Assembly: GCA_030066685.1 (NCBI GenBank)
Contig: JASJBF010000020.1
Span: 1-64,000 of the forward strand
Source of the DNA: Kiloniellales bacterium
Lineage (GTDB): Bacteria > Pseudomonadota > Alphaproteobacteria > Kiloniellales > JAKSBE01
Direction: 5' to 3'
DNA length: 64,000 nt
The first letter of the stretch is position 1. The number at the start of each line of letters is the position of its first letter. A program made the translations under genes and the position numbers. Below are positions 49,058-64,000 of the stretch, piece by piece. The notes under the pieces are model-generated. The model did not search any database, was not told the DNA's origin, and worked only from the letters and a program-made list of their open reading frames with translations.

Positions 49058-49071
49058 TTGACTCAAATCAA
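49058..49071. promoter_or_regulatory. FnrN/FixK anaerobox upstream of the hyp operon
   Basis: TTGACTCAAATCAA matches the FNR-family consensus TTGAY-N4-RTCAA exactly. Its centre is about 69 bases before the hupK-like ATG. An activating site centred 41.5 bases before transcription would start the mRNA near 49106, about 28 bases before the ATG, so positive control of the operon fits. Confidence 0.7.
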
Positions 49072-49133
49072 GGACACCGGTTCGGCCCGGCTCCAAGCTT
49101 GACTTCGCAAACTTAGCAGAAGCGGGCTTGGTC

Positions 49134-50162
49134 ATGGTGATGCGGCAGGCGTCGCAACCCGACCCCCGAGACAGGGCGGCAACTGAGACCGGTGGATGGT
49201 TCACGAGCAGGTCCGCGGATCGCGATACCGCAGCGGCCAAGTTCGTGCCACCGTCCTTAGAAGCGATCGACATTGCCCTCCAGCCCGCGCCGGACGGCTG
49301 GCAGCCGCACATCACCTATCGCCGTCCTGACATCGGTGGCCTTCTTTCCGGTCTCCCGCTGTCCGTCGCTCGGGAGCAGCTCGGACGCATCCATACGGCC
49401 TGCGGATACGCCCACGAGACGGCGTTTACCAGGGCCGTCGAATCTGCCTTCGGCACTTCGACCGAGAGTGCAGCCCGCTATGCGGCGCGCGAACTGCATC
49501 TGCTGATCGAGGCTGCTATCGCGTACGCCCGCCGAGCGGCGTTGGAATTGGCACCAGCTTGTGGGGAGGAGCCGTGTGTCGCGCAATTGAAGGCTGTACT
49601 CGCGGCCGCGGGCGCAGCAAAGGCGACGATCGGCCTAGACCATCTCGACGAAGAAATAGTGCCAGACAGGCAGCCGCTGGCCGTGGCGATCGGTCGGTTG
49701 TGTGACGAACAGGCCCGCCTGCTTCAAGCGGTGCCGGCTGAACCGCCGGGCGTGATCATCGACCGCTTGCCGACGCCCCTGCGCAACCTGGCACGCGAGG
49801 GTTGGCGCAGACCTTGGCGGTTCTTCCGGACCATCGGCTCCACTGCCAGGGGGCTTGTCGACCGACTCGATCAGGAACCTACGCGGCCATTCTGTCCGAG
49901 TTCCAATACGGCCGGGAGCGGCAGCGCGACGACGTCACGTGGCCGGCTCAGATACGTTGTGCGAAGCAAGCAGGGGCGGCTCGTATCCCTTCGGGCGTCG
50001 ACTCCGACCAAGCGGCTGGTTGCGCCGGGCGGCGCCCTCGCCCGGCAACTAAGTCTGCTGCCCTTGGCCAACGATGTTGCCGACTTGGCACGGTTCGTCG
50101 TCCTCGCCGCCGATCCCTGCGCGCCGGCAACCATTCGGGTCAGCGAGGCAGCGCATGCATGA
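49134..50162 (+). CDS. hupK: HupK/HoxV-like hydrogenase maturation protein
   Basis: A 342-residue protein recognised mainly by context and by weak similarity to the hydrogenase large subunit. HTACGYAHETAFTRAVE recalls the N-terminal RICGVC region with only one Cys, and AADPCAPATIR near the end recalls the C-terminal DPCxxC, also reduced to one Cys. HupK/HoxV proteins are scaffolds for building or inserting the Fe(CN)2CO unit (family knowledge). ATG 49134 is chosen; ATG 49140 is equally possible. Overlaps hypA by 8 bases. First gene of the accessory operon. Confidence 0.65.
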   Translation: MVMRQASQPDPRDRAATETGGWFTSRSADRDTAAAKFVPPSLEAIDIALQPAPDGWQPHITYRRPDIGGLLSGLPLSVAREQLGRIHTACGYAHETAFTRAVESAFGTSTESAARYAARELHLLIEAAIAYARRAALELAPACGEEPCVAQLKAVLAAAGAAKATIGLDHLDEEIVPDRQPLAVAIGRLCDEQARLLQAVPAEPPGVIIDRLPTPLRNLAREGWRRPWRFFRTIGSTARGLVDRLDQEPTRPFCPSSNTAGSGSATTSRGRLRYVVRSKQGRLVSLRASTPTKRLVAPGGALARQLSLLPLANDVADLARFVVLAADPCAPATIRVSEAAHA

Positions 50163-50496
50163 GATGGCCCTGAGTCAGAGCCTGATCGAGGTGATCGAGG
50201 AGCAGGCCCGCCTGCAGGATTTCGCCAGGGTCAGGAGCGTGACAGTCGAACTCGGTTGCCTGGGGCATGTGGACGCCCATGCGCTGCGCTTTTGCTTCGA
50301 CGTCGTCACGCGCCGCACGATCGCGGCAGGCTCCAGGCTGATCATCGTCGATCGGCCGGGAAGGGTCGCGTGCCTCGACTGCGGCGCAATCGGCGATGTC
50401 GCCGAGCGGATCCTTGTCTGTCCGGACTGTGGCAGCGAGCGCGTGATGGTCGACGGCGGCGATCAGATCAGACTGACCGAATTGGAGGTAAACTGA
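50155..50496 (+). CDS. hypA: hydrogenase nickel chaperone HypA
   Basis: A 113-residue cytosolic protein delivering Ni2+ to the hydrogenase large subunit with HypB. The N-terminal [10 protein letters not shown] holds the nickel ligand His2; the zinc site is two CxxC pairs (Cys73/76 and Cys89/92). The start is fixed by this conserved N terminus. Ends in a TGATG overlap with hypB. Confidence 0.96.
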
Positions 50497-51281
50497 TGTG
50501 CGGGACCTGCGGCTGCGACGGCGCCGGCGCGACGATCGAGCGACCGACGGCCTCACACCATCACCAACATGGCCTGGGCGGGCATGCGCACAACCATGCC
50601 CATCTGGAGGCGGATCCACGCGTCCTCTCGCTGGAGATCGACCTGCTGGCAAAGAACGACGCGATCGCGGCGCGCAATCGGGCCCTTTTCGCCGAGCGGG
50701 GGATCGTTGCCGTCAACCTGATGTCGAGCCCGGGGGCAGGCAAGACGAGCCTGCTGGTGCGAAGCCTGGAAAGGCTCGCCGGCATCTATCCGGTCGCCGT
50801 GATCGAGGGCGACCAAGCCACCGCACAAGACGCTGAACGCATCCGCGCCTGCGGTGTTCCTGCGGTCCAAATCAACACCGGCAAGGGATGCCATCTCGAC
50901 GCCGAGATGATCGAACAGGCCCTGCCCGAACTGAACCTCCCGGACGGCGGCATCCTGTTCATCGAGAATGTCGGCAACTTGGTCTGTCCAGCCGGCTTCG
51001 ACCTTGGGGAACGCTGGAAGGTGGTGATCGCCTCTGTCACCGAGGGCGAGGACAAGCCCTTGAAGTATCCAGGGATGTTCGCGGCCTGCGGCCTGATGCT
51101 GGTGAGCAAGTGCGACCTGCTCCCGGCACTGCGCTTCGACGTCGACCGGCTCGAAGCGAACGCCCGGAGGGTCAAGCCCGAGATCGATATCCTGCGAGTC
51201 AGCGTCGAGACGCCGGACGGTCTTGCCCCCTGGCTCGACTGGCTCGAGGCGGCTGGCGTCGCCGTGTCCCCTGCCGCTTAG
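50496..51281 (+). CDS. hypB: hydrogenase nickel-insertion GTPase HypB
   Basis: A 261-residue GTPase. It starts MCGTCGCDG (Cys2, 5, 7: the high-affinity N-terminal nickel motif), then a short His-rich stretch ([16 protein letters not shown]) for nickel storage, and a GTPase domain with P-loop [22 protein letters not shown] and VSKCDLLP. The start is the conserved MCGTCG, overlapping hypA. Partner of HypA in nickel transfer. Confidence 0.97.
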
Positions 51282-51291
51282 GACCTCCGAC

Positions 51292-53562
51292 ATGCAGCCG
51301 CTCGCGACCGAACGGACTCAGTCAGGCGACCAAGAGCGCCTGCGGGTGCGTGTGCGCGGCCGGGTGCAGGGCGTCGGATTTCGGCCCTTCGTCTTCGGCC
51401 TTGCGGACGAACATGGCTTGAGCGGTTGGGTCCGGAATGACAACGAAGGCGTCCTGGTCGAGGTCGAAGGCGCGTCCTGCACGGCGTTCCTGCAGGACCT
51501 CGAGGCCCGACCGCCCGAACTCGCGCGGATCGACCGGATCGAAGTCGACCGGCTGTCTCCGACCGGCGGCGCGGCCTTCGAGATCCGGACCAGTGTGACC
51601 GACGCGGCAGCCGCAACGATGATCGGCCCGGATACGGCGACCTGCGAGGCTTGTCTGACCGAGATGTTCGATCCGACGGATCGCCGCTACCGCTATCCCT
51701 TCGTCAACTGCACCCATTGCGGGCCGCGCTATACAATCACCCGGGCGCTGCCCTATGACCGACCCCAGACCTCGATGGCCGGATTCCCATTGTGCCCGGC
51801 CTGCGCCTGCGAGTATGCCGATCCCGCCGACCGGCGATTCCATGCCCAGCCGCTTGCCTGCCCTGTCTGCGGCCCGCGGCTTTCGGAGCCGGTCGAGCGA
51901 ATTCTCGCTCGCCTGCGGCGCGGTGAGATCGTCGCGCTCAAGGGCATCGGCGGCTATCACCTGGCCTGCGACGCAAGGAATGCCCGGAGCGTTGCCCGGC
52001 TGCGCGCGCGAAAGGACAGAGAGGCGAAGCCGTTTGCCGTGATGGTCGCGGGCCTGTCCTCGGCTCGGCGGATTGCCCGTCTTTGCGACGCCGACGCCGA
52101 TCTGCTGCGCGACCGCGGCCGGCCGATCGTGGTCCTGCCGCGCCGGGCGGACGCGGACCTCGCGGCGGGGATCGCGCCGGACCTGGCTTCGGTCGGCATC
52201 ATGCTGCCCTATGCGCCGCTCCATTTCCTGCTGTTCCACGAAGCGGCGGGCCGGCCGCAAGGCACGGCGTGGCTCGAGCAGGCGCCGCCGGACCTGGCCC
52301 TGGTGATGACCAGCGCGAACCCCGGCGGCGAACCCCTGATCACCGACGACGCCGAAGCCCGGACCCGTCTTGCGGGGATCGCAGATGCGGTGGTCGGTCA
52401 CGACCGGCCGATCGTGGTCCGGGCCGACGACAGCGTGATCCAGGGCGGCGCCGCGCCCACGGTGATCCGTCGTGGCCGCGGCATGACCCCAAACCCGATC
52501 CCGCTTGCCCGAGCGGTCCCGAGCGTTCTGGCGGTCGGAGGCCATCTCAAGGCCACGGTCTGCCTCACCCGGGACCGGCAGGCCTTCCTGTCCCAGCATG
52601 TCGGCGACCTGGACAGCGTCGAGGCGCGCCGGTTCCTGCTCGAGACCATCGAGCACCTCCTGTCGATCCTCCAGGTGCGCCCGGAGGCCGTCGCCCACGA
52701 CCTGCACCCCGACTTCTTCACGACCCGCTATGCCCGGGGGCTCGGACTGCCGAGCGTTCCGGTGCAGCACCATCACGCCCACATCGCCGCGGTGTCCGCC
52801 GAGCACGGCCGGAGGGGCCCGCTGCTCGGCCTCGCCCTCGACGGCATGGGCTTTGGGCCGGATGGCACGGTTTGGGGCGGCGAACTGCTGTTGCTCGAGG
52901 GCACAGAGGTCACCCGGCTCGGTCACCTGCGTCAGCTACAGCAGCCGGGCGGCGACATCGCCGCGCGGGAGCCCTGGCGCATGGCGGCCGCCGCACTGCA
53001 CCTGCTTGACCGGGACGAGGAAACCCTGGGCCGCTTCGGCCGGATCGGGCCGGCCTCGGCGGTGCGCAGCTTGCTCCGGTCCGGCACCGCGGTGACCCCG
53101 ACCTCGAGCCTCGGGCGGTGGTTCGACGCGGCCGCGGCCCTGCTCGGTGTCGTCCCGGTCGCGGCCTACGAGGGGCACGCGGCGATGGTGCTGGAATCGC
53201 TTGTCGAGACGCCACGGACCATGCCGGAGGGCTGGACCCTTGCACCCGATGGCACCCTGGATCTGCTGCCGCTGTTGGACAAGCTGGCAGGAATGGCGCC
53301 GCGACCAGGAGCCGAGCTGTGGCACGGGACGCTGGCCGCCGGACTCTCGGCGTGGGCAGCGCAGGCGGTCGACAGCACCGGGGTCCGGACGGTCGCCCTG
53401 TCTGGGGGCTGCCTGTTGAACCGGGTGCTGCGTATCCATCTGGCCGCTGACCTCGAAGCACGCGGCATCGAGGTCTTGCTTCCCCGCGCCGCCCCGCCGG
53501 GTGATGGCGGGATCAGCCTGGGTCAAGCCTGGATCGCCGCTCAGACCATGGAAAGGACCTGA
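51292..53562 (+). CDS. hypF: carbamoyltransferase HypF
   Basis: A 756-residue enzyme that makes the thiocyanate precursor of the active-site CN ligands from carbamoyl phosphate and ATP. Domain order: acylphosphatase (VRGRVQGVGFRPFVFGLADE), two zinc fingers (CEACLTEM, NCTHCGPRY, CPACACEY, CPVCGPR), a YrdC-like domain (VALKGIGGYHLACDA) and a Kae1-like domain (VQHHHAHIAAVSAEHG). ATG 51292 follows GGACCTCC and begins the family sequence. Confidence 0.96.
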   Translation: MQPLATERTQSGDQERLRVRVRGRVQGVGFRPFVFGLADEHGLSGWVRNDNEGVLVEVEGASCTAFLQDLEARPPELARIDRIEVDRLSPTGGAAFEIRTSVTDAAAATMIGPDTATCEACLTEMFDPTDRRYRYPFVNCTHCGPRYTITRALPYDRPQTSMAGFPLCPACACEYADPADRRFHAQPLACPVCGPRLSEPVERILARLRRGEIVALKGIGGYHLACDARNARSVARLRARKDREAKPFAVMVAGLSSARRIARLCDADADLLRDRGRPIVVLPRRADADLAAGIAPDLASVGIMLPYAPLHFLLFHEAAGRPQGTAWLEQAPPDLALVMTSANPGGEPLITDDAEARTRLAGIADAVVGHDRPIVVRADDSVIQGGAAPTVIRRGRGMTPNPIPLARAVPSVLAVGGHLKATVCLTRDRQAFLSQHVGDLDSVEARRFLLETIEHLLSILQVRPEAVAHDLHPDFFTTRYARGLGLPSVPVQHHHAHIAAVSAEHGRRGPLLGLALDGMGFGPDGTVWGGELLLLEGTEVTRLGHLRQLQQPGGDIAAREPWRMAAAALHLLDRDEETLGRFGRIGPASAVRSLLRSGTAVTPTSSLGRWFDAAAALLGVVPVAAYEGHAAMVLESLVETPRTMPEGWTLAPDGTLDLLPLLDKLAGMAPRPGAELWHGTLAAGLSAWAAQAVDSTGVRTVALSGGCLLNRVLRIHLAADLEARGIEVLLPRAAPPGDGGISLGQAWIAAQTMERT

Positions 53563-53565
53563 ACC

Positions 53566-53799
53566 ATGTGCCTTGCGGTGCCCGCCGAGGTGATCGAGAT
53601 CGTCGACGAAAACCATTGCCGCGTCTCGCTGGGCGGCGTTCGGCAGGTGATCGCGACGGATCTGGTCGAGGACGTGGCGGTCGGCGAATACCTCATCGTC
53701 CATGTCGGCTTCGCGCTGGGCCGTGTCTCGCCGGAGGAGGCCGAGGCGACCCTGGCTCTGATGGCGCAGGCCGGCATCGTCCCGGAGGCCGCGTCATGA
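53566..53799 (+). CDS. hypC: hydrogenase maturation chaperone HypC
   Basis: A 77-residue chaperone that carries the Fe(CN)2CO unit with HypD. MCLAVPAEVIEI holds the essential Cys2 at the N terminus, which is exposed after Met removal. Normal length for HypC. It sits 3 bases after hypF and overlaps hypD by four bases. Confidence 0.96.
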   Translation: MCLAVPAEVIEIVDENHCRVSLGGVRQVIATDLVEDVAVGEYLIVHVGFALGRVSPEEAEATLALMAQAGIVPEAAS

Positions 53800-54929
53800 A
53801 ATACATCGAGGAGTTTCGGGACGGCCGCCTGGCCCGGCAGCTCGCCGGCGCGATCGCCGGCGAGGTCGCCCCGGACCGGCGCTACCGGCTGATGGAGTTC
53901 TGCGGCGGGCACACGCACGCGATCTTCCGCTACGGCATCCGGGACCTGCTTCCGGATGGAGTGGAGATGGTCCATGGGCCCGGCTGCCCGGTCTGCGTGC
54001 TGCCGATCGGCCGGCTGGACATGGCGATTCGAATGGCCCGGCGGCCGGAGGTGATCCTTTGCTCCTATGGCGACATGCTGCGGGTGCCGGGTTCGAAGCG
54101 GACGAGCCTTCTGAAGGCAAAGGCCGAAGGCGCCGACGTGCGTATGGTCTATTCGGCCGCGGACGCCCTCCGTGTCGCGCAGGCCAATCCGGACCGGGAG
54201 GTCGTGTTCTTCGCCATCGGATTCGAGACCACGACGCCGCCCACGGCCGTCGCCCTGAAGCAGGCCCGCGATCTCGACCTGCCGAACTTCAGCGTGTTCT
54301 GCAATCACGTCCTGACGCCCGCGGCGATCACCAACATCCTGGAGAGCCCCGACGTGCGGGAGATCGGGACCGTCCCGATCGACGGCTTTCTGGGTCCCGC
54401 CCATGTCAGCGTGGTGATCGGGAGTCAGCCCTACGCCTTCTTCGCAGAGGAGTACCGCAAGCCCGTGGTGATCACCGGTTTCGAGCCGCTCGACGTGATG
54501 CAGTCGATCCTCATGCTGGTCCGGCAGCTGAACGAGGGCCGGGCGGAAGTCGAGAACCAGTACATCCGGGCCGTCACCCCCGAGGGTAACGCGCGCGCCA
54601 AGGCCTTGGTCGCGGAAGTCTTCGAGTTGCGCCGCAGCTTCGAGTGGCGCGGGCTCGGCCGGGTGCCCTACAGCGCTTTGCGGATAAAGCGGGACTACGC
54701 CCGCTTCGACGCGGAGGCGCGCTTCGACGAGCCCTTTATCCCGGCGCGCGAGACCCGGGCGTGCAAATGCCCGATGATCCTACGCGGGGCCGCGAAGCCG
54801 ATGGACTGCAAGCTGTTCGGCACTGTTTGCACGCCGGAGACTCCCTTCGGATCCTGCATGGTCTCCGCCGAAGGTGCCTGCGCCGCCTATTACAGCTACG
54901 GCCGGCGGGCGGAAGCGCGAATGGCATGA
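53796..54929 (+). CDS. hypD: Fe-S scaffold HypD
   Basis: A 377-residue [4Fe-4S] protein on which the Fe(CN)2CO group is assembled. Conserved blocks are MEFCGGHTHAIFRYG (active Cys), HGPGCPVCVLP, and a C-terminal cluster with CKCPMILRG, CKLFG and CTPETPFGSCMVS. ATG 53796 overlaps the hypC stop; it ends overlapping the hypE start by four bases. Confidence 0.97.
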   Translation: MKYIEEFRDGRLARQLAGAIAGEVAPDRRYRLMEFCGGHTHAIFRYGIRDLLPDGVEMVHGPGCPVCVLPIGRLDMAIRMARRPEVILCSYGDMLRVPGSKRTSLLKAKAEGADVRMVYSAADALRVAQANPDREVVFFAIGFETTTPPTAVALKQARDLDLPNFSVFCNHVLTPAAITNILESPDVREIGTVPIDGFLGPAHVSVVIGSQPYAFFAEEYRKPVVITGFEPLDVMQSILMLVRQLNEGRAEVENQYIRAVTPEGNARAKALVAEVFELRRSFEWRGLGRVPYSALRIKRDYARFDAEARFDEPFIPARETRACKCPMILRGAAKPMDCKLFGTVCTPETPFGSCMVSAEGACAAYYSYGRRAEARMA

Positions 54930-55933
54930 CCGAGCTGATCGAAATGGCCCATGGCGCCGGCGGCCGCACGATGGCCGGGTTGATTGACAGCGTGTTCCGG
55001 CCCGCCTTCGACAACCAGTGGCTCGCCCGGGCCGAGGATCATGCCGCCCTTGCGGCACCGGACGGCCGGCTGGCGATGACCACCGATACCTATGTGATCT
55101 CGCCCCTGTTCTTTCCGGGCGGGGACATCGGGTCGCTGGCGGTGCACGGCACGATCAACGATCTCGCCACCGCCGGCGCCCGGCCCTTGTACCTCAGCGC
55201 CGGTTTCGTGCTCGAGGAGGGATTCCCGATCCAGGACCTGCAGCGGGTCGTCGCGTCGATGGCAGACGCCGCCAAGGCCGCCGGGGTCGCAATCGTCACC
55301 GGTGACACCAAGGTGGTAGAGCGCGGCAAGGGCGACGGGCTGTTCATCAACACCACCGGTCTGGGTCTCGTGCCCGACGGGGTCGAGCTCTCGACGACAC
55401 GGGTCCGCCCGGGTGACGCCGTGCTGGTTAGCGGATCGCTCGGCGACCACGGCGTCGCGGTGATGTCCAAGCGATCCGGGCTCAGCTTCGAAACGGAGAT
55501 CGAGTCGGACAGCGCGGCCCTGCACGACCTGGTTGCCGTGATGGCCGGCGCCGCTGCCGGCCTGCGGGCCCTGCGCGATCCGACCCGGGGCGGCCTCTCC
55601 GCCGTGCTCAACGAGATCGCCCAGGCGGCCGGGGTCGGCATGCGGATCCGCGAGGTGGACCTGCCGGTCAAGGACTCGGTTCGGGGGGCCTGCGAGCTGC
55701 TCGGGCTGGACCCCCTGAACGTGGCGAACGAGGGCAAGATGGTCGCCTTTTGCGACCCGGCCGATGCGCAAAGGCTGCTCGACGCCATGCGTGCGCACCC
55801 TTTGGGCCGGGACGCCTCGGTGATCGGGGTGGTCACGGACGATCCCGACCGCTTCATCGAACTCGAGACCGCGTTCGGCGGCCGCCGCGTCGTCGACTGG
55901 TTGGCGGGCGAACAGCTTCCCCGCATCTGCTGA
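54926..55933 (+). CDS. hypE: carbamoyl dehydratase HypE
   Basis: A 335-residue AIR-synthase-fold enzyme that dehydrates the HypE thiocarboxamide to thiocyanate. The ATP-binding N-terminal half has MAHGAGGRTMAGLI and TTDTYVISPLFFPGGDIG, and the chain ends PRIC, with the catalytic C-terminal Cys that accepts the carbamoyl group from HypF. Overlaps hypD by four bases. Confidence 0.97.
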   Translation: MTELIEMAHGAGGRTMAGLIDSVFRPAFDNQWLARAEDHAALAAPDGRLAMTTDTYVISPLFFPGGDIGSLAVHGTINDLATAGARPLYLSAGFVLEEGFPIQDLQRVVASMADAAKAAGVAIVTGDTKVVERGKGDGLFINTTGLGLVPDGVELSTTRVRPGDAVLVSGSLGDHGVAVMSKRSGLSFETEIESDSAALHDLVAVMAGAAAGLRALRDPTRGGLSAVLNEIAQAAGVGMRIREVDLPVKDSVRGACELLGLDPLNVANEGKMVAFCDPADAQRLLDAMRAHPLGRDASVIGVVTDDPDRFIELETAFGGRRVVDWLAGEQLPRIC

Positions 55934-55944
55934 GGAGAGGGGCG

Positions 55945-57651
55945 ATGCGCATCCTGCTGCTGACCCGCAGCTTCAACAGCTTGACCCAGCGCCTTCATGT
56001 CGAGCTTGCCGAGCGTGGGCACGATCTTTCGGTCGAGTTCGACATCAACGACGCGGTCAGTCTCGAGGCCGTCGATCTCTTCCGGCCCGATCTGGTCATC
56101 GCTCCCTACCTGACCCGGCGCATCCCGGAGGCGATCTGGCGGCGGGTGACGACACTCGTCGTCCACCCGGGACCGCTTGGCGACCGTGGTCCCTCCGCGC
56201 TCGATTGGGCAATCCTCGATGGCCAGGAAAGCTGGGGCGTTACCCTGCTACAGGCCGAAGCCGAGCTCGACGCCGGACCGGTCTGGGCGACCCGTCGGTT
56301 CCAGATGCGCGCGGGCACGAAGAGCAGCCTGTACCGCAACGAGGTGACCGAAGCCGCGGTCGCCTGCGTGCTGGAGGCCATCGAGGCGCTCCAGGGCGGC
56401 CGGTCGCGGAGGGACACGCGCCAATCCGCGGAGATCCGCACGGCCGGCTGGCGGCGGCGGGTGACTCAGCCGGACCGGGCAATCGACTGGCGCTGCGACG
56501 ACACCGAGACCGTGATCCGCAAAATCCGCGCGGCCGACGGGCAGCCTGGCGTTCTCGACAGCCTCGCAGGCCGGCCGTTCCACCTCTACGACGCCCATCC
56601 CGAGCCGGAGCTCGCGGGGCGACCCGGCGCGCTGCTGGCCCGCCGCGCGGAGGCGGTCTGCCGGGCGACCGCCGACGCTGCGGTCTGGATCGGCCATCTG
56701 CGCCCGGTGCCGGACGGCGAGCCGAGCTTCAAGCGGCCGGCGACCCTGGCGCTTGGCCCCGAGGCGAGCCGCCTGCCCGAACGGCCGCCGGTGGTCGGCA
56801 TGGACGGGGTGGGCTGGCAGCCCATCCGCTACCGGGAGGAAGGCGCGGTCGGCTACCTGTCTTTCGATTTCTACAACGGGGCGATGTCGACCGCCGGGTG
56901 CCGGCGGCTGCTGCTCGCTTACCGCCAGGCCGCGGCCCGTCCGACCCGGGTGCTGGTCCTGATCGGCGGACGGGAGTTCTGGTCGAACGGCCTCGACCTC
57001 GCGACGATCGAGGCTGCGGAAAGCCCGGCCGACGAAAGCTGGCGCAACATCAACGCCATGGACGACCTGACCGAGGCTGTGATCGGCACCACCGACAAGC
57101 TGACGGTCGCCGCGATGCGGGGCAATGCCGGCGCGGGCGGCGTCTTCCTGGCGCTTGCGGCGGATCTGGTTCTGGCGCGCGCCGGAATCGTGCTCAACCC
57201 GCACTACAAGAACATGGGCAATCTCTATGGGTCCGAGTACTGGACCTATCTCTTGCCGCGCCGTCGTCCGGACGGCGGATTGGACGGCGTGATGGATCGC
57301 CGGCTTCCCATCGGCGCCGAGGCGGCGCGGACACTCGGGCTGATCGACGACGTCCTGCCGAACGATCGGAGGGCCTGCGAGGCGGCGATCGAGGATACCG
57401 CCGGGCGGATCGCGGACGATCCGGCAATCGTCACCCGGCTTGCCGACAAGGCGCGCCGGCGCGCCGCCGACGAGGCCGCCAAGCCGCTGGCCGAATACCG
57501 GCGCGCGGAACTCGAGCGGATGACCCTGAACTTCTACGGCTTCGATCCGAGCTATCACGTCGCCCGCTATCACTTCATCGCAAAGCTCCCCCTCGCGCGG
57601 ACGCCGGTCCACCTGGCGCGTCATCGGGAGCTGCGGCGCAGCAGCGCTTAA
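55945..57651 (+). CDS. hypX: HypX, CO-ligand synthesis enzyme for aerobic hydrogenase maturation
   Basis: A 568-residue two-domain protein. The N-terminal half resembles formyl-THF hydrolase/transferases, with VVHPGPLGDRGPSALDWAIL. The C-terminal half resembles enoyl-CoA hydratase/isomerase, with RGNAGAGGVFLALAADLVLA and NPHYKNMGNLYGSEYWTY. In characterised HypX, N10-formyl-THF is turned via formyl-CoA into CO for the active site, allowing maturation in air. ATG 55945 follows GAGGAGAGG. Last clear gene of the hup/hyp operon. Confidence 0.93.
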   Translation: MRILLLTRSFNSLTQRLHVELAERGHDLSVEFDINDAVSLEAVDLFRPDLVIAPYLTRRIPEAIWRRVTTLVVHPGPLGDRGPSALDWAILDGQESWGVTLLQAEAELDAGPVWATRRFQMRAGTKSSLYRNEVTEAAVACVLEAIEALQGGRSRRDTRQSAEIRTAGWRRRVTQPDRAIDWRCDDTETVIRKIRAADGQPGVLDSLAGRPFHLYDAHPEPELAGRPGALLARRAEAVCRATADAAVWIGHLRPVPDGEPSFKRPATLALGPEASRLPERPPVVGMDGVGWQPIRYREEGAVGYLSFDFYNGAMSTAGCRRLLLAYRQAAARPTRVLVLIGGREFWSNGLDLATIEAAESPADESWRNINAMDDLTEAVIGTTDKLTVAAMRGNAGAGGVFLALAADLVLARAGIVLNPHYKNMGNLYGSEYWTYLLPRRRPDGGLDGVMDRRLPIGAEAARTLGLIDDVLPNDRRACEAAIEDTAGRIADDPAIVTRLADKARRRAADEAAKPLAEYRRAELERMTLNFYGFDPSYHVARYHFIAKLPLARTPVHLARHRELRRSSA

Positions 57652-57854: not shown

Positions 57855-58319
57855 TCAGCTTCCAGAGGTGGCCTTCAGCGCCTCGATGATCTCGGCCCGC
57901 TCGTCAGCGTCCGGGATGCCGACGATCGTCTTTTTCGTGCCCGGCAGGAAGGTCGGCGGATGGGTCAAGTACTTGTCCAGGTCGGGCTCGCTCCAGGTTC
58001 CGCCCGCCGAGCGCAAGGCCTCGGAATAGTTGAACCAGGGCGATCGCGCCTTCGGAGCGCCGACCACGCCGTCCAAATCCGGCGCGGCGCGCGAGGCGTC
58101 TGCCGGGTCGACGCTGTGACAGACCACGCAATCGCGCAGGGCCGTGTCGGCTCCCGCCGCGCGCACCGGGATGACCGTCTCTCCGAACGCCGGTGTCGTC
58201 GGCGGGGCGGGCAGCAGCCCCGCGACCGAGCGGCCTTCCGTTCCGACTCCCCAGATCACGGCGATCACCAGGACACCGGCGACTCCGGCCGCACATACGT
58301 AGGATCCGAAGCGAGGCAT
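57855..58319 (-). CDS. membrane-anchored class I cytochrome c lacking the axial Met
   Basis: A 154-residue c-type cytochrome with an uncleaved N-terminal helix (about 7-24) and a periplasmic heme domain. CVVCH (Cys64, Cys67, His68) binds heme. The C-terminal segment THPPTFLPGTKKTIVGI matches the PGTKM block of class I cytochromes, but the Met is Lys130, and no Met exists anywhere after the signal region. Lys129/130 or His120 must supply the sixth ligand, or the iron is five-coordinate. Divergent from the FNR-family gene, with an anaerobox placed well for activation. ATG 58319 begins the anchor helix. Confidence 0.8.
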   Translation of the reverse strand: MPRFGSYVCAAGVAGVLVIAVIWGVGTEGRSVAGLLPAPPTTPAFGETVIPVRAAGADTALRDCVVCHSVDPADASRAAPDLDGVVGAPKARSPWFNYSEALRSAGGTWSEPDLDKYLTHPPTFLPGTKKTIVGIPDADERAEIIEALKATSGS

Positions 58320-58404: not shown

Positions 58405-58418
58405 TTGACGATCGTCAA
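58405..58418. promoter_or_regulatory. anaerobox between cytochrome c and fnr-type genes
   Basis: TTGACGATCGTCAA is a perfect 14-bp palindrome matching TTGAY-N4-RTCAA. Its centre is 92 bases from the cytochrome ATG, so an activating geometry would start that mRNA about 51 bases before the ATG. It is only 38 bases before the regulator ATG, too close for activation and suited to autorepression. Confidence 0.72.
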
Positions 58419-58449: not shown

Positions 58450-59187
58450 ATGTTGCGCAGCAACGGTAACGGCTCATGTCCCAGCGATCCGACGGCGCCT
58501 TGCAGCCGATGCGAACGCTTCACCGATACGGAGTGGAACGAATTGGACGCGGAGGATCTGTGCCTTCTGTCGCGGGCCAAAGTGCGGCGCCGCTATGCAT
58601 CGGGCCAGTCCCTGTTCTGCCAGGGCGATGCGAATTCGGGCCTCTATTGCCTGAGCGCCGGGACGGTGGCGCTGCGGCAGCTCGACGAGGCCGGCAACTC
58701 GGTGCTGCTTGGCCTCGCCTATCCCGGTGACGTGCTGGGATACCGCTCGCTCGTGTCGGGCGTGGAGCACAAGACGAGCGCCGAGGCGCTCGGACCCTGC
58801 CGGGCGTGCAAGATCGGCCGCAAGACGGCGCTGGATCTGATCCAGCGGCGTCCGCAGCTTGGAATGGCCTTCCTGCGCCGGTCCAGCCGAGAGATCGAAC
58901 GGATGCATAAGTCGATTCTCCGGTCGGCCGCGCTCAGCAATCGCGGCCGGCTGTTGCAGATCATGGTTTCGATGATGGAGCATCACGGACGCCCAACCGG
59001 TGACGGCACCTACGCCATCGATCTTCCGGTCTCGCGCCGGGACCTCGCCTCGATGATCGGCGCCCGGCACGAGACCCTGTCCCGCGTCATGAGCCGGCTC
59101 GAAGAGGAACAGCTGGCAGAATTCTCCGGCCGCCGGGTTGTCATTCCCAACCTCGATGCCTTCGTCGGGGCGGCCAACGGCGGCTAG
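58450..59187 (+). CDS. FNR/CRP-family regulator (FnrN/FixK type)
   Basis: A 245-residue transcription factor. Cys10, Cys18 and Cys21 near the N terminus and Cys117/Cys120 (GPCRACKIGR) offer a cluster ligand set like that of oxygen-sensing FNR proteins, with altered spacing. A cNMP-type beta barrel (GQSLFCQGDANSGLYCLSAG), dimer helix and a C-terminal HTH (LASMIGARHETLSRVMSRL) follow; Glu208, Ser211 and Arg212 form the ETLSR set that reads TTGA half-sites. It therefore fits the three anaeroboxes in this locus and is probably the local hydrogenase regulator. Confidence 0.87.
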   Translation: MLRSNGNGSCPSDPTAPCSRCERFTDTEWNELDAEDLCLLSRAKVRRRYASGQSLFCQGDANSGLYCLSAGTVALRQLDEAGNSVLLGLAYPGDVLGYRSLVSGVEHKTSAEALGPCRACKIGRKTALDLIQRRPQLGMAFLRRSSREIERMHKSILRSAALSNRGRLLQIMVSMMEHHGRPTGDGTYAIDLPVSRRDLASMIGARHETLSRVMSRLEEEQLAEFSGRRVVIPNLDAFVGAANGG

Positions 59188-59210: not shown

Positions 59211-59224
59211 TTGACGATCGTCAT
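59211..59224. promoter_or_regulatory. anaerobox upstream of hybO
   Basis: TTGACGATCGTCAT repeats the 58405 site with one base changed at the end. Its centre lies about 59 bases before the hybO ATG, so an activating position would start transcription near 59259. The sequence GAGGAG at 59267-59272 follows as ribosome-binding site. Confidence 0.72.
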
Positions 59225-59276
59225 CGCGCGACCGAGGCAGCGGATCGACCATGGGTCCCAGCCCTCGAGGAGTGGG

Positions 59277-60446
59277 ATGACCATGCGCGAGAAACATCGA
59301 GACGAACTCGATCTGGAGGCGGCGCTCGGGCCGGCGCCGGACGAGCCGATGCATCTGTTGGGCGGGCTGACCCGCCGGCAGATGCTGCAGTTCTGCGCCG
59401 GGGTGGCTGCGACGATGGGGCTGCCGGCGATCGCTGGACGGCAGATGGCCGACGCCGCGACCGCGCCGGGCCGGCCGCCGGTCATCTGGCTGCACGGTCA
59501 GGAATGCACGGGCTGCACGGAATCGCTGCTGCGTTCCTACCATCCGACCCTCGAGCAGCTGATCCTCGAAGTCATCTCGCTCGATTATCACGACACGCTC
59601 TGCGTCGGCGCCGGCCGCCAGGCGCTGGACTACAAGCACAAGATCATGGAGGAGCACAAGGGCGCCTACGTCCTGGTGACCGAAGGCGGGACGCCGATGA
59701 AGGACGGCGGGGTGTACTGCAAGGTCGGCGGCGAGACCCAGGTCGACCTGGTCCGCAAGGCTGCGGACGGGGCGGCGGCGATCATCGCCATCGGATCCTG
59801 CGCCTCCTGGGGCGGCATCCAGTCGGCCGATCCGAACCCGACCGGCGCCGTCGGCACGCACGAAGTCATCCCAGACAAGACGGTGATCAACGTCCCGGGC
59901 TGTCCGCCCAACCCTTACAACTTCCTGTCGACCGTCCTCTACCTCTTGACCTTCGGCAAGCCGCCGGAACTCGATGGCCTGAACCGGCCGAAGTTCGCTT
60001 ACGGCCGCCTGGTGCACGAGAACTGCGAGCGTCGCCCGCATTTCGATGCCGGCCGCTTCGCCCTCGAATTCGGCGACGAGGGCCATCGCCAGGGTTTCTG
60101 TCTCTACAAGGTCGGCTGCAAGGGCCCGGAAACCTATGCCAACTGTCCGGCGATCGGGTTCGGGGACGTCGGCCACGGCGCCTGGCCGGTTGGGACCGGC
60201 CATCCGTGCTTCGGTTGCACCGAAAAGGGGATCGGTTTCCACAAGCCGATCCATGCGCTTGCCACCGTCAAGAGCCAGACGCCGCCGACCTCCTATCCCG
60301 ACATAGATCTGACCAAGGGAACCGGCGTCTCGCCCGGCGCGGCAGCGTTGGTCGCCGGCATTGCCGGCATCGTCGTCGGGGCCGGGGCGATGCTGCTGAA
60401 GCAGATGGGCGACAAGCCCGGAAGCCGCGACGCGACGGAGGGCTAG
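59277..60446 (+). CDS. hybO: [NiFe]-hydrogenase small subunit, Hyb type
   Basis: A 389-residue Fe-S subunit. A long n-region leads into the Tat motif TRRQMLQF (Arg33/34), so the folded dimer should leave by Tat. HGQECTGCTES (Cys77, Cys80) and GSCASWGGIQ ligate the proximal cluster; CPPNPYNF and the CKGPETYANCP, PCFGCTEKG blocks hold the others. The positions of the two extra cysteines of oxygen-tolerant enzymes are Gly here (CTGC and WGG), so a standard [4Fe-4S] proximal cluster is expected. A C-terminal helix (GAAALVAGIAGIVVGAGAML) anchors it to the inner membrane. ATG 59283 is an alternative start. Confidence 0.94.
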   Translation: MTMREKHRDELDLEAALGPAPDEPMHLLGGLTRRQMLQFCAGVAATMGLPAIAGRQMADAATAPGRPPVIWLHGQECTGCTESLLRSYHPTLEQLILEVISLDYHDTLCVGAGRQALDYKHKIMEEHKGAYVLVTEGGTPMKDGGVYCKVGGETQVDLVRKAADGAAAIIAIGSCASWGGIQSADPNPTGAVGTHEVIPDKTVINVPGCPPNPYNFLSTVLYLLTFGKPPELDGLNRPKFAYGRLVHENCERRPHFDAGRFALEFGDEGHRQGFCLYKVGCKGPETYANCPAIGFGDVGHGAWPVGTGHPCFGCTEKGIGFHKPIHALATVKSQTPPTSYPDIDLTKGTGVSPGAAALVAGIAGIVVGAGAMLLKQMGDKPGSRDATEG

Positions 60447-60449
60447 GCC

Positions 60450-61469
60450 ATGTCCGTAAGCCGGCGCGACTTCCTGTGCAACGTGGGTGGCGGTGCCGTG
60501 GCGGCGACCGCCGCCCCTGCCGCCGCCGAGGCCGCGCCGCTGCTGGCCCGGCCGAACCTGCCGCTGCCGCCGAAGGCGGTCGGGATGCTCTACGATTCGA
60601 CCATCTGCATCGGCTGCAAGGCCTGCGTCGACGCCTGCAAGTCCGCGAACGGCATGCCCGACGAAATCCCGCTGGAGCATAGCGGCTGGAATTTCGGCCA
60701 GTGGGATACGCCGCAGGACCTTTCGGGCAAGACGCTCAACGTCATCAAGGCCTATCGCCAGGGCGACATGAGCAAGAAGGACGTGGAGGAAGACGGCTTC
60801 GCCTTCATGAAGCGGCACTGCCTGCACTGTGTCGACCCCTCGTGCATCTCGGTGTGCCCGGTCTCGGCGATGCTGAAGGATCCCGAGACCGGCATCGTCA
60901 CGCACGATCCGGACGCCTGCATCGGATGCCGCTATTGCGTCTATGGCTGCCCCTTCGGCGTGCCGCAATACGACTTCGATTCCCCCTTCGGCGAGATCCA
61001 GAAGTGCGAGATGTGCGAACATCTGCAGGCCAAGGGCGAGATCCCGGCCTGCTGCGACGTCTGTCCGACCGGCGCCTCGCTCTTCGGCCTGGTCGAAGAG
61101 CTGCAGGCCGAAGCGGACCGCCGTCTCGCCGCGGCGCCCGGCAGCCCCTACCAATTCCCGCGCGGCCGTTTGGGGGACGGCCGGCCGACCCACGAGGGCA
61201 AGATCGCGACCTATCAGCCGGCGGTCTACGGCGTCGATGACGGCGGCGGCACCCAGGTCCGCTATCTCTCGGGCGTGGCCTTCGCCAAGCTCGGCCTGCC
61301 CGATCTGCCGAAGTACTCCTTCGCCTCGGTCGGCGAGGGCATCCAGCACACCATCTACAAGTGGTTTATCGCGCCGCTGGTCGGCTTCGGAGTCCTGGCG
61401 GTGTTCGCCCGCCGCCACCTGCGGCGCAAAGCGGACCGGGGCGATCTTGGGCAGGGAGGCGAGGCATGA
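60450..61469 (+). CDS. hybA: hydrogenase 4Fe-4S electron-transfer subunit, HybA type
   Basis: A 339-residue periplasmic ferredoxin-like subunit with a Tat signal (SRRDFLCNVGGG). Four cysteine groups for 4Fe-4S clusters are visible: CIGCKACVDAC, CLHCVDPSCISVCP, CIGCRYCVYGCP and CEMC with CCDVCP. A C-terminal helix (WFIAPLVGFGVLAVFA) anchors it. It links HybO to HybB. Three bases after hybO; overlaps hybB by four bases. Confidence 0.93.
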   Translation: MSVSRRDFLCNVGGGAVAATAAPAAAEAAPLLARPNLPLPPKAVGMLYDSTICIGCKACVDACKSANGMPDEIPLEHSGWNFGQWDTPQDLSGKTLNVIKAYRQGDMSKKDVEEDGFAFMKRHCLHCVDPSCISVCPVSAMLKDPETGIVTHDPDACIGCRYCVYGCPFGVPQYDFDSPFGEIQKCEMCEHLQAKGEIPACCDVCPTGASLFGLVEELQAEADRRLAAAPGSPYQFPRGRLGDGRPTHEGKIATYQPAVYGVDDGGGTQVRYLSGVAFAKLGLPDLPKYSFASVGEGIQHTIYKWFIAPLVGFGVLAVFARRHLRRKADRGDLGQGGEA

Positions 61470-62626
61470 GTCACGCCCCCCTTCGCAGGACTCTTTTCAC
61501 CCCGGTGACGCTGGTGCTGGCGGTGCTGGTTGCGATCGCCGCCTACTACGTCGCGATCCGGTTCATCTTCGGGCTCGGCGCCGTCACCAACCTGAACCCG
61601 GGCTATCCCTGGGGCATCTGGGTGGTGGTCGACATCGTCATCGGCACGGCCCTGGGCTGCGGCGGCTTCGCCATGGCCTTGCTGGTCTACATCTTCAACC
61701 GCGGCGACTATCACCCCTTGGTCCGGCCGGCGCTCCTGGGCGGGCTATTCGGCTACACCTTGGCCGGCATGGCCGTCATCATCGATCTCGGCCGGTACTG
61801 GCAGGCCTACAATCTGATGCTGCCCTGGTACGCCCAGCCCAACTCGGTGATGTTCGAGGTGGCGCTCTGCGTGATGGCCTACGTCATCGTGCTCTGGGTC
61901 GAGTTCTCGCCGGCCTTCTTCGAACGCTTCGGCCTGACCGGCCTGCGCCGGCTGGTCCAGCGCTACATGTTTCTGTTCATCGCCCTGGGCGTGCTGCTGC
62001 CCAGCATGCACCAGAGCTCGCTCGGCACGCTGCTGCTGGTCATGGAATCCCAGCTGTCACCCCTGTGGTACAGCCTTTGGCTGCCGCTGCTGTTCGTCAT
62101 CTCGGCGCTGGCCATGGGCTATGCGATCGTCGCCTTCGAGGCGACCGTGGTGTCCGAGACCTTCGACACGCCCTCCGAGCACCATCTGCTGTCCAGGCTG
62201 TCGATCGTCGTCGGCTGCGTTCTGGTGGCCTTCATGGCGATCCGTTGGATCGACCTGCTCGACCGCGGCGTGCTCGCGCTCGCCCTTGCCGGCGATTTGG
62301 ACGCCTGGATGTTCTGGATCGAGAACGGGCTCTTCGCCTGTGCCATCCTGGCCTTCCTGCTGCCGGCCGGTCGGGCGTCGAAACGCGTGACCTTCTTGGG
62401 CGCCGCCGCCCTGTTGCTGGGCGGCTCGCTGTACCGGCTCAACGCCTATCTGATCGCTTACGATCCCCCGGGCAACTGGACCTACTTCCCCTCGGTGCCG
62501 GAGCTGATGGTGACGATCGGCGTCTTCGCCCTGGAAGTCCTGCTCTACCTGATCTTCGTCAAGACCCTACCGGTACTTGCGGCCCACGCCTCGGCGCCGG
62601 CCGCCAAGGCCCAACCTGCCGAATAG
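61466..62626 (+). CDS. hybB: hydrogenase membrane quinone-reducing subunit, HybB type
   Basis: A 386-residue NrfD/HybB-family membrane protein with about ten helices, which passes electrons from HybA to the quinone pool without heme. Family blocks are NPGYPWGIWVVVDIVIGTALGCGGFA, LGRYWQAYNLMLPWY and LPSMHQSSLGTLLLVM. ATG 61466 overlaps the hybA stop (ATGA). In Escherichia coli the same hybOABC set is hydrogenase 2. Confidence 0.93.
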   Translation: MSHAPLRRTLFTPVTLVLAVLVAIAAYYVAIRFIFGLGAVTNLNPGYPWGIWVVVDIVIGTALGCGGFAMALLVYIFNRGDYHPLVRPALLGGLFGYTLAGMAVIIDLGRYWQAYNLMLPWYAQPNSVMFEVALCVMAYVIVLWVEFSPAFFERFGLTGLRRLVQRYMFLFIALGVLLPSMHQSSLGTLLLVMESQLSPLWYSLWLPLLFVISALAMGYAIVAFEATVVSETFDTPSEHHLLSRLSIVVGCVLVAFMAIRWIDLLDRGVLALALAGDLDAWMFWIENGLFACAILAFLLPAGRASKRVTFLGAAALLLGGSLYRLNAYLIAYDPPGNWTYFPSVPELMVTIGVFALEVLLYLIFVKTLPVLAAHASAPAAKAQPAE

Positions 62627-62636
62627 GAGCCGTCCC

Positions 62637-64000
62637 GTGGCACGTATCACCATCGATCCGATCACCCGCATCGAAGGTCACCTGCGGATCGACTGCGAGG
62701 TCGATCAAGGGCAGGTCGGCAAGGCCTGGTCGTCCGGCACCATGTGGCGCGGCATCGAGCTGATCCTCAAGGATCGCGACCCGCGCGACGCCTGGATCTA
62801 TGCCCAGCGGATCTGCGGCGTCTGCACAACCGTGCATGCCGTGACCTCGGTCCGGGCGGTCGAGAACGCGCTCGATCTGCCGGTCCCGCTGAACGCTCAA
62901 TACATCCGCAACCTGATCGTCGCCGCCCACGGCATCCACGATCACATCGTGCATTTCTACCACTTGGCCGCTCTCGACTGGGTCGACATCGTCTCGGCGC
63001 TGAGCGGCGATCCCAAGTCGACGGCCAAGCTCGGGGCACAGCTCTCGGACTACAAGGGCAACAGCGAGCCGGAGATCCGGGCGGTGCGCGACCGGCTCGC
63101 GAAGTTCGTCGACAGCGGCCAGCTCGGCGTCTTTGCCTCGGGCTATTGGGGTCACCCGGCGATGAAGCTGCCGCCGGACGTCAACCTGCTGGCGGCGACC
63201 CACTACATGCAGGCGCTGGAAGTGCAGCGCGCCTGCAACCAGATCGTCACCATTCTGGGATCGAAGTCGCCGCACATCCAGAACCTGGCCGTCGGCGGCG
63301 TGGCGAACCCGATCAATCCGGAGAGCCAGTCGACCCTGACCCTGGAGCGCTTGTACGCCATCAAGGCGCTGATCGACCAGGTCGGCGACTTCGTCAACAA
63401 CGCCATGATGACCGACACCGCGGCGGTCGGCGCGCTCTACGCCGATTGGACCGGGTATGGCGCCGGTGTCACCAACTACCTGTCGGTTCCCGATCTGCCG
63501 CTGGACGAGATGGGCGAGCAGTTCGAACTGCCCGGCGGCTTCATCCCGAATGCCGACGTCGACGCCTTCAAGCCGATCACCAGCTACAAGGACGACTACT
63601 TCCGGGACGGGGTGAAGGAGGCGGTCAAGCACTCCTGGTACGACTATTCGAACGGCGGCGCCGCGTTGCATCCCTTCGACGGCGAGACCAGCCCGAACTA
63701 CACCGACTTCCAGGACGACGGAAAGTACTCCTGGATCAAGGCGCCGACCTTCCACGACGAGCGCGCCCAGGTCGGGCCGCTGGCGCATGTGCTTTCCATG
63801 TACGTCGCCGGGCACGAGCCGACCCGGCGACACCTCGGCAGGCTGCTGGACGTCGCCGGCAAGCTCGCCGGCAGCGAGATCCCACTCTCGGCGCTGCACT
63901 CGACGATCGGAAGAATTGCCGCGCGCACGGTCCGCTGCGCGGTGCTGCTCGAATCCCTGAACAACCAGTGGCAGCTGTTGATGGAGAACATCGGCAAGGG
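62637..64000 (+). CDS. hybC: [NiFe]-hydrogenase large subunit, HybC type (partial, 5' 454 codons)
   Basis: The frame opens at GTG 62637 (MARITIDPITRIEGH, the family start) and remains open to the window end. RICGVC (Cys60, Cys63) supplies the first two nickel ligands; GNSEPEIRAV, FASGYWGHPAM and SKSPHIQNLAVGGV are typical. The C-terminal DPCxxC pair and the cleaved tail lie beyond the window. Preceded by GAATAGGAGCC. It catalyses H2 splitting with HybO. Confidence 0.95.
   Translation, partial: MARITIDPITRIEGHLRIDCEVDQGQVGKAWSSGTMWRGIELILKDRDPRDAWIYAQRICGVCTTVHAVTSVRAVENALDLPVPLNAQYIRNLIVAAHGIHDHIVHFYHLAALDWVDIVSALSGDPKSTAKLGAQLSDYKGNSEPEIRAVRDRLAKFVDSGQLGVFASGYWGHPAMKLPPDVNLLAATHYMQALEVQRACNQIVTILGSKSPHIQNLAVGGVANPINPESQSTLTLERLYAIKALIDQVGDFVNNAMMTDTAAVGALYADWTGYGAGVTNYLSVPDLPLDEMGEQFELPGGFIPNADVDAFKPITSYKDDYFRDGVKEAVKHSWYDYSNGGAALHPFDGETSPNYTDFQDDGKYSWIKAPTFHDERAQVGPLAHVLSMYVAGHEPTRRHLGRLLDVAGKLAGSEIPLSALHSTIGRIAARTVRCAVLLESLNNQWQLLMENIGK

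Follow-up and report, generated by a model that had tools for sequence, protein, structure and literature searches.

The sixth heme ligand of class I cytochromes c is, by textbook account, Met80, and ligation by Lys is known in them chiefly from alkaline conditions or engineering. Lys-ligated class I hemes have been described in the alkaline form and in engineered variants of mitochondrial cytochrome c (PMC12188557). A natural His/Lys c-type heme is heme 2 of TsdA from Allochromatium vinosum (PMC6879331). Among the open-access papers searched, no report was found of a natural class I cytochrome with Met80 changed to Lys, nor of a natural monoheme one with a His/Lys ligand set. The window analysed here, a stretch of 64,000 nucleotides from a Kiloniellales bacterium, carries a cytochrome c gene with Lys in this position.

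The cytochrome and its fold

The cytochrome gene (57855..58319, minus strand) encodes a protein of 154 aa with a class I fold. An upstream TTG would give a longer open reading frame (58580), but the N-termini of the relatives fit the ATG at 58319, from which the positions of the heme motif and of the Lys130 codon are computed. The only CXXCH of the protein is the heme attachment motif CVVCH (residues 64-68, with C64, C67 and H68; 58116..58130, minus strand). Residue numbers equal those of horse cytochrome c plus 50, so that H68 corresponds to His18, P80 to Pro30, W109 to Trp59, T128 to Thr78 and K130 to Met80. Where class I cytochromes show PGTKM, this protein reads PGTKKTIVGI, the codon of Lys130 being AAG (57930..57932, minus strand), and phmmer/HMMER alignments place K130 on Met80 of cytochrome cy (E 1e-16), c552 and mitochondrial cytochrome c. 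Residue 1 is the only Met. The original prediction, made from this DNA before any alignment, had claimed Lys in place of the axial Met and a mature domain free of Met, and both statements stand.

A Pfam scan of the window cytochrome gave no match at E 0.001, and two of its relatives reach PF00034 at Pfam's own threshold. The AlphaFold model, which is heme-free, predicts a hydrophobic helix at residues 5-25 and a heme domain at about residues 54-152, which is a class I cytochrome core with pLDDT 86-96 across most blocks. The helix is likely to be a membrane anchor, and a candidate for the uncleaved one of the CycM/cytochrome cy type. When residues 58-152 of the model are superposed on solved structures, the best match is 1ql4, the soluble domain of P. 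denitrificans c552 (Z 14.9, rmsd 1.4, 93 residues).

With respect to the class I of Ambler, the CXXCH near the N-terminus of the heme domain and the class I fold are present, and the sixth-ligand Met is absent; the axial Met that defines the CycM/cytochrome cy type is likewise replaced by Lys. Because the strict Ambler definition requires the Met ligand, the protein is a variant of the class I fold and not a plain member. As modelled, it is most likely a CycM/c552-like periplasmic monoheme cytochrome c, tethered to the membrane by its N-terminus.

Relatives with Lys and the choice of ligand

Four relatives also carry Lys: one comes from a MAG, one from a genome that belongs to the same class but to a different order, and two from genomes of another class. 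The closest relative (locus L035), detected when bacterial and archaeal genomes were scanned, is 54% identical and reads PGTSK. A profile built from these two sequences gave the third member, in genome G239, the one from the different order (PGTKK), and a profile built from three sequences gave G892 (PGTAK) and G909 (PGSTK), both of another class of the phylum. No further Lys-type members were found among the 61 genomes of the order to which the window genome belongs, in the order of G239 or among 398 genomes of the phylum, and the four matches inspected in a search of plasmids (Tistrella, Methylobacterium, Sinorhizobium and Sulfitobacter) all have Met. The Lys-type set comprises five sequences, most of which come from draft genomes.

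In an alignment of 82 sequences, the Met80 column contains Lys in all five members and Met in the other 77 homologues. Two other positions follow this division: horse position 29 is Ala in 5/5 Lys-type and Gly in 77/77 Met-type sequences, and position 82 is Ile or Leu in all Lys-type proteins and Phe in most of the Met-type ones. As judged from the alignment, the changes at positions 29 and 82 alter both sides of the heme. The five proteins form one clade (support 99/85) even when the Lys column is masked, and this clade appears in 99% of the bootstrap trees, although the bootstrap is not fully converged. The backbone of the tree, based on this short alignment, is not resolved. The dN/dS ratio lies at about 0.3-0.5, dS being nearly saturated, and the Lys-type cytochrome appears to be under purifying selection.

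That the protein is a normal cytochrome c whose Met codon was misread or misassembled, an objection that the original prediction raised against itself, found no support and is excluded, since AAG occupies this column in three independent genomes, with proteins that share 44-54% identity, and Lys is present in two more. The fact that four relatives, two of them from another class, keep Lys suggests that the exchange is a lasting retuning rather than a mutation or a sequencing error.

Lys129, Lys130 and His120 had all been put forward as possible ligands. Only Lys130 retains this status: position 129 is K, S, K, A and T, and position 120 is H, S, K, A and N in the five members, so that Lys129 and His120 were discarded and Lys130 is left as the only conserved candidate. 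No conserved second His was found in any of the five proteins. The ligand switch that had also been proposed, if understood as the Lys/Met switch of TsdA, is excluded, because the five heme domains are devoid of Met. In view of the absence of other conserved distal ligands, coordination by the Lys130 amine would be the simplest reading.

A different explanation is that Met was lost and Lys130 does not coordinate, the heme being five-coordinate or water-bound and the Lys serving surface charge or partner docking. In class I cytochromes the Met80 loop is close to the side that docks partners, and residues 79 and 81-83, which flank the Met80 column, vary too. However, drift should diversify the residues, yet Lys is kept in five of five proteins over two classes while position 129 varies freely, and position 29 of the heme pocket has changed alongside. 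We consider this explanation improbable. Lys-ligated cytochrome c variants are folded, and some water-ligated form is present in them (PMC12188557).

The hydrogenase locus and its putative control

Genes that we take to be hypA, hypB, hypF, hypC, hypD and hypE (50155..55933, plus strand), maturation genes named from sequence and family knowledge without a library scan, are followed by a gene for a HypX/HoxX-like maturation protein with formyltransferase and enoyl-CoA hydratase domains (55948..57651, plus strand). Beyond the cytochrome gene, and divergent from it, is the gene of a CRP/FNR-family regulator (58450..59187, plus strand). Then come, all on the plus strand, the genes of HybO, the small subunit of a hydrogenase-2-type [NiFe] hydrogenase (59211..60446), the ferredoxin-like subunit HybA (60450..61469), the NrfD-like membrane subunit HybB (61466..62626) and the large subunit HybC (62643..64000, extending beyond the window to contig position 64343). 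HybA and HybB are above their equivalog cutoffs; HybO and HybC find their best matches in the hydrogenase 2 models, yet fall under those equivalog cutoffs. The four genes are adjacent, as in a HybOABC locus.

The open reading frame that precedes hypA (49128-50162) has no Pfam match, and its place resembles that of a HupK-like gene in G239 (L065, 8686-9894). The latter lies between hypA and the cytochrome and encodes a degenerate protein similar to the C-terminal portion of a hydrogenase large subunit. Contig C2 of the window genome (L085, 2231-3100) carries a second frame that distantly resembles a hydrogenase small subunit and contains one in-frame TAA. Outside the window, at about 70771-73135 of contig C20 (L066, 14771-17135), two adjacent genes encode Met-Gly-Pro-Tyr repeat proteins (GMYGMPGM) whose sole match is a collagen repeat model; a cytochrome c' gene is close by.

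The hallmark of FNR, the oxygen-sensing [4Fe-4S] regulator, is a set of three N-terminal Cys and one central Cys. The Cys residues common to three orthologues of the window regulator are C18, C21, C67 and C120; the CRP/FNR fold and the central Cys are kept, and C18 and C21 are the only common Cys of the N-terminal cluster. Between the divergent cytochrome and FNR-like genes there is an anaerobox-like palindrome, TTGACGATCGTCAA (58405..58418, plus strand). It is the single exact occurrence of the pattern TTGAC-N4-GTCAA in the window, where 0 are expected, and it bears out, together with the adjoining HybOABC genes, the hydrogenase context and the anaerobox named in the original prediction. A palindrome of this pattern also stands between the two genes in L035 and G239. 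A second box, TTGACGATCGTCAT (59211..59224, plus strand), is situated at the hybO start, and a box before HybO, sometimes with one mismatch, is found in the window, L035, L065 and L088 (G892). These sequence elements are consistent with an FNR-type anaerobic control shared by the cytochrome and hydrogenase genes. Since a third box-like site, TTGACTCAAATCAA (49058-49071), is located just 5' of the open reading frame at 49128, ahead of the hyp maturation genes, the whole hyp-cytochrome-hyb region may be under one common regulator.

The gene order cytochrome / FNR-like / HybO / HybA / HybB is common to the window, L035 and G892. G239 shows the order cytochrome / FNR-like / HybO-HybA-HybB with a bacteriohemerythrin gene (L065, 10400-10837) inserted beside the cytochrome gene, whose start it overlaps. 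An FNR-like regulator and a HybOABC operon adjoin the Lys-type cytochrome in four of the five members. Lys is conserved in all four hydrogenase-linked proteins of the clade, that of the window included, and this was the check that the original prediction had called for.

The hemerythrin overlap suggests an oxygen-related partner. The main rival to electron carriage is a sensor or gas-reactive heme, in which a labile Lys130 cap would leave the iron upon reduction, protonation or arrival of a ligand (O2, NO, CO, peroxide), and the protein would act in redox or gas sensing or scavenge oxidants near the oxygen-sensitive hydrogenase. It draws on the hemerythrin gene, on the adjoining FNR-like regulator and on the lability common among the few known His/Lys hemes (PMC6879331). 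However, the fold is that of an ordinary electron carrier without fusion to a signalling domain, the cytochrome lies outside the cytoplasm and the FNR protein within it, and the hemerythrin is present at one locus only. Such a role is considered unlikely.

A strict linkage of Lys-type cytochromes to hydrogenases is ruled out by G909, whose cytochrome has no adjacent hydrogenase; the ligand change is thus not strictly tied to this enzyme. In that genome (L089, 8408-8923) a signal-peptide-like N-terminus replaces the anchor and a CoA-transferase gene adjoins, which therefore points to a partner other than hydrogenase.

The HybO proteins of the window, L035 and G239 share 76-79% identity with one another and 57-63% with those of the other loci. 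HybO homologues at E below 1e-140 are present in 6 of the 385 genomes of the same class. No close HybO was found in the two congeners of the window genome, and G001 has only a distant homologue (32% identical). In the related hydrogenase loci of G099 and G107, the stretches read contain no cytochrome c. Related hydrogenase loci in genomes of another family, f23, have a small cytochrome c gene in the matching place, directly 5' of HybO (G204, G381, G822, G825 and, probably, G824), but these cytochromes keep Met (PGTAM, PGTRM or PGNAM) and form a separate clade. Hence, the hydrogenase-linked cytochrome is not always of the Lys type. No FNR gene was found in the stretches read of these loci. A common origin of the Lys clade and the f23 Met-type cytochromes is not rejected by AU tests (p 0.39 and 0.447); an earlier AU test that omitted close relatives (p 0.0005) was discarded as badly posed.

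A putative electron carrier and its known counterparts

The reading that we favour, at slightly better than an even chance, is that of a membrane-tethered cytochrome with constitutive His/Lys ligation and a low potential, serving the HybOABC hydrogenase as electron carrier; its coordination and potential we infer. The lower potential and the role of electron acceptor or redox sensor put forward in the original prediction are likewise hypotheses. The heme iron would be bound by His68 and the Lys130 amine, which replaces Met80. For comparison, heme 2 of TsdA has a potential of -129 mV with His/Lys and of +266 mV with His/Met (PMC6879331). In the window cytochrome, the exchange of Met for Lys would lower the midpoint potential by several hundred millivolts. 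A potential of the order of the His/Lys value falls between the H2 couple and ubiquinone, and would suit a carrier beside a hydrogenase 2-type complex. The cytochrome would then link the HybOABC complex to a low-potential partner by passing electrons at low potential, and FNR-type anaerobic control would act on it together with the hydrogenase.

Different facts argue against this carrier. HybA and HybB already provide a route to quinone, so that the cytochrome is not required. Related loci lack a cytochrome in the stretches read (G099, G107), the G909 cytochrome has no hydrogenase as neighbour, and there are five sequences only. In addition, Lys130 could face away from the iron or be protonated, which would give a water-bound or five-coordinate heme. 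The wider proposal, a natural monoheme family of class I fold in which Met has permanently become Lys, both sides of the heme have changed to match and the protein, a constitutive His/Lys low-potential carrier, is the periplasmic electron outlet of a hydrogenase-2-type enzyme, is plausible, although we place it somewhat below even. If true, hydrogenase 2-type enzymes would gain an unexpected electron partner. The Lys-at-80 clade, with its linked change of Gly29 to Ala, offers a ready system to test the evolutionary shift from high to low potential.

The window cytochrome shares with CycM, cytochrome cy and Paracoccus c552 the fold, the N-terminal hydrophobic helix, the CXXCH, Pro30, Trp59, Thr78 and the PGT loop, but it has Lys for Met80, Ala for Gly29 and Ile for Phe82, and its gene adjoins hydrogenase genes. 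In TsdA, Lys208 is the residue before Met209 and alternates with it as ligand, whereas here Lys is at the Met position itself in a Met-free domain; the two hemes of that enzyme, with a Cys-ligated catalytic one, contrast with a single CXXCH in 154 aa. In mitochondrial cytochrome c, Met80 gives way to Lys73 or Lys79 at high pH or after engineering, while in the window protein Lys is itself encoded at position 80. Finally, the locus resembles E. coli hydrogenase 2 (HybOABC) in HybA and HybB, which exceed the equivalog cutoffs, and in HybO and HybC, whose best matches are its models; it differs in that these last two stay under the cutoffs and in the addition of a cytochrome c gene and an FNR-like gene.
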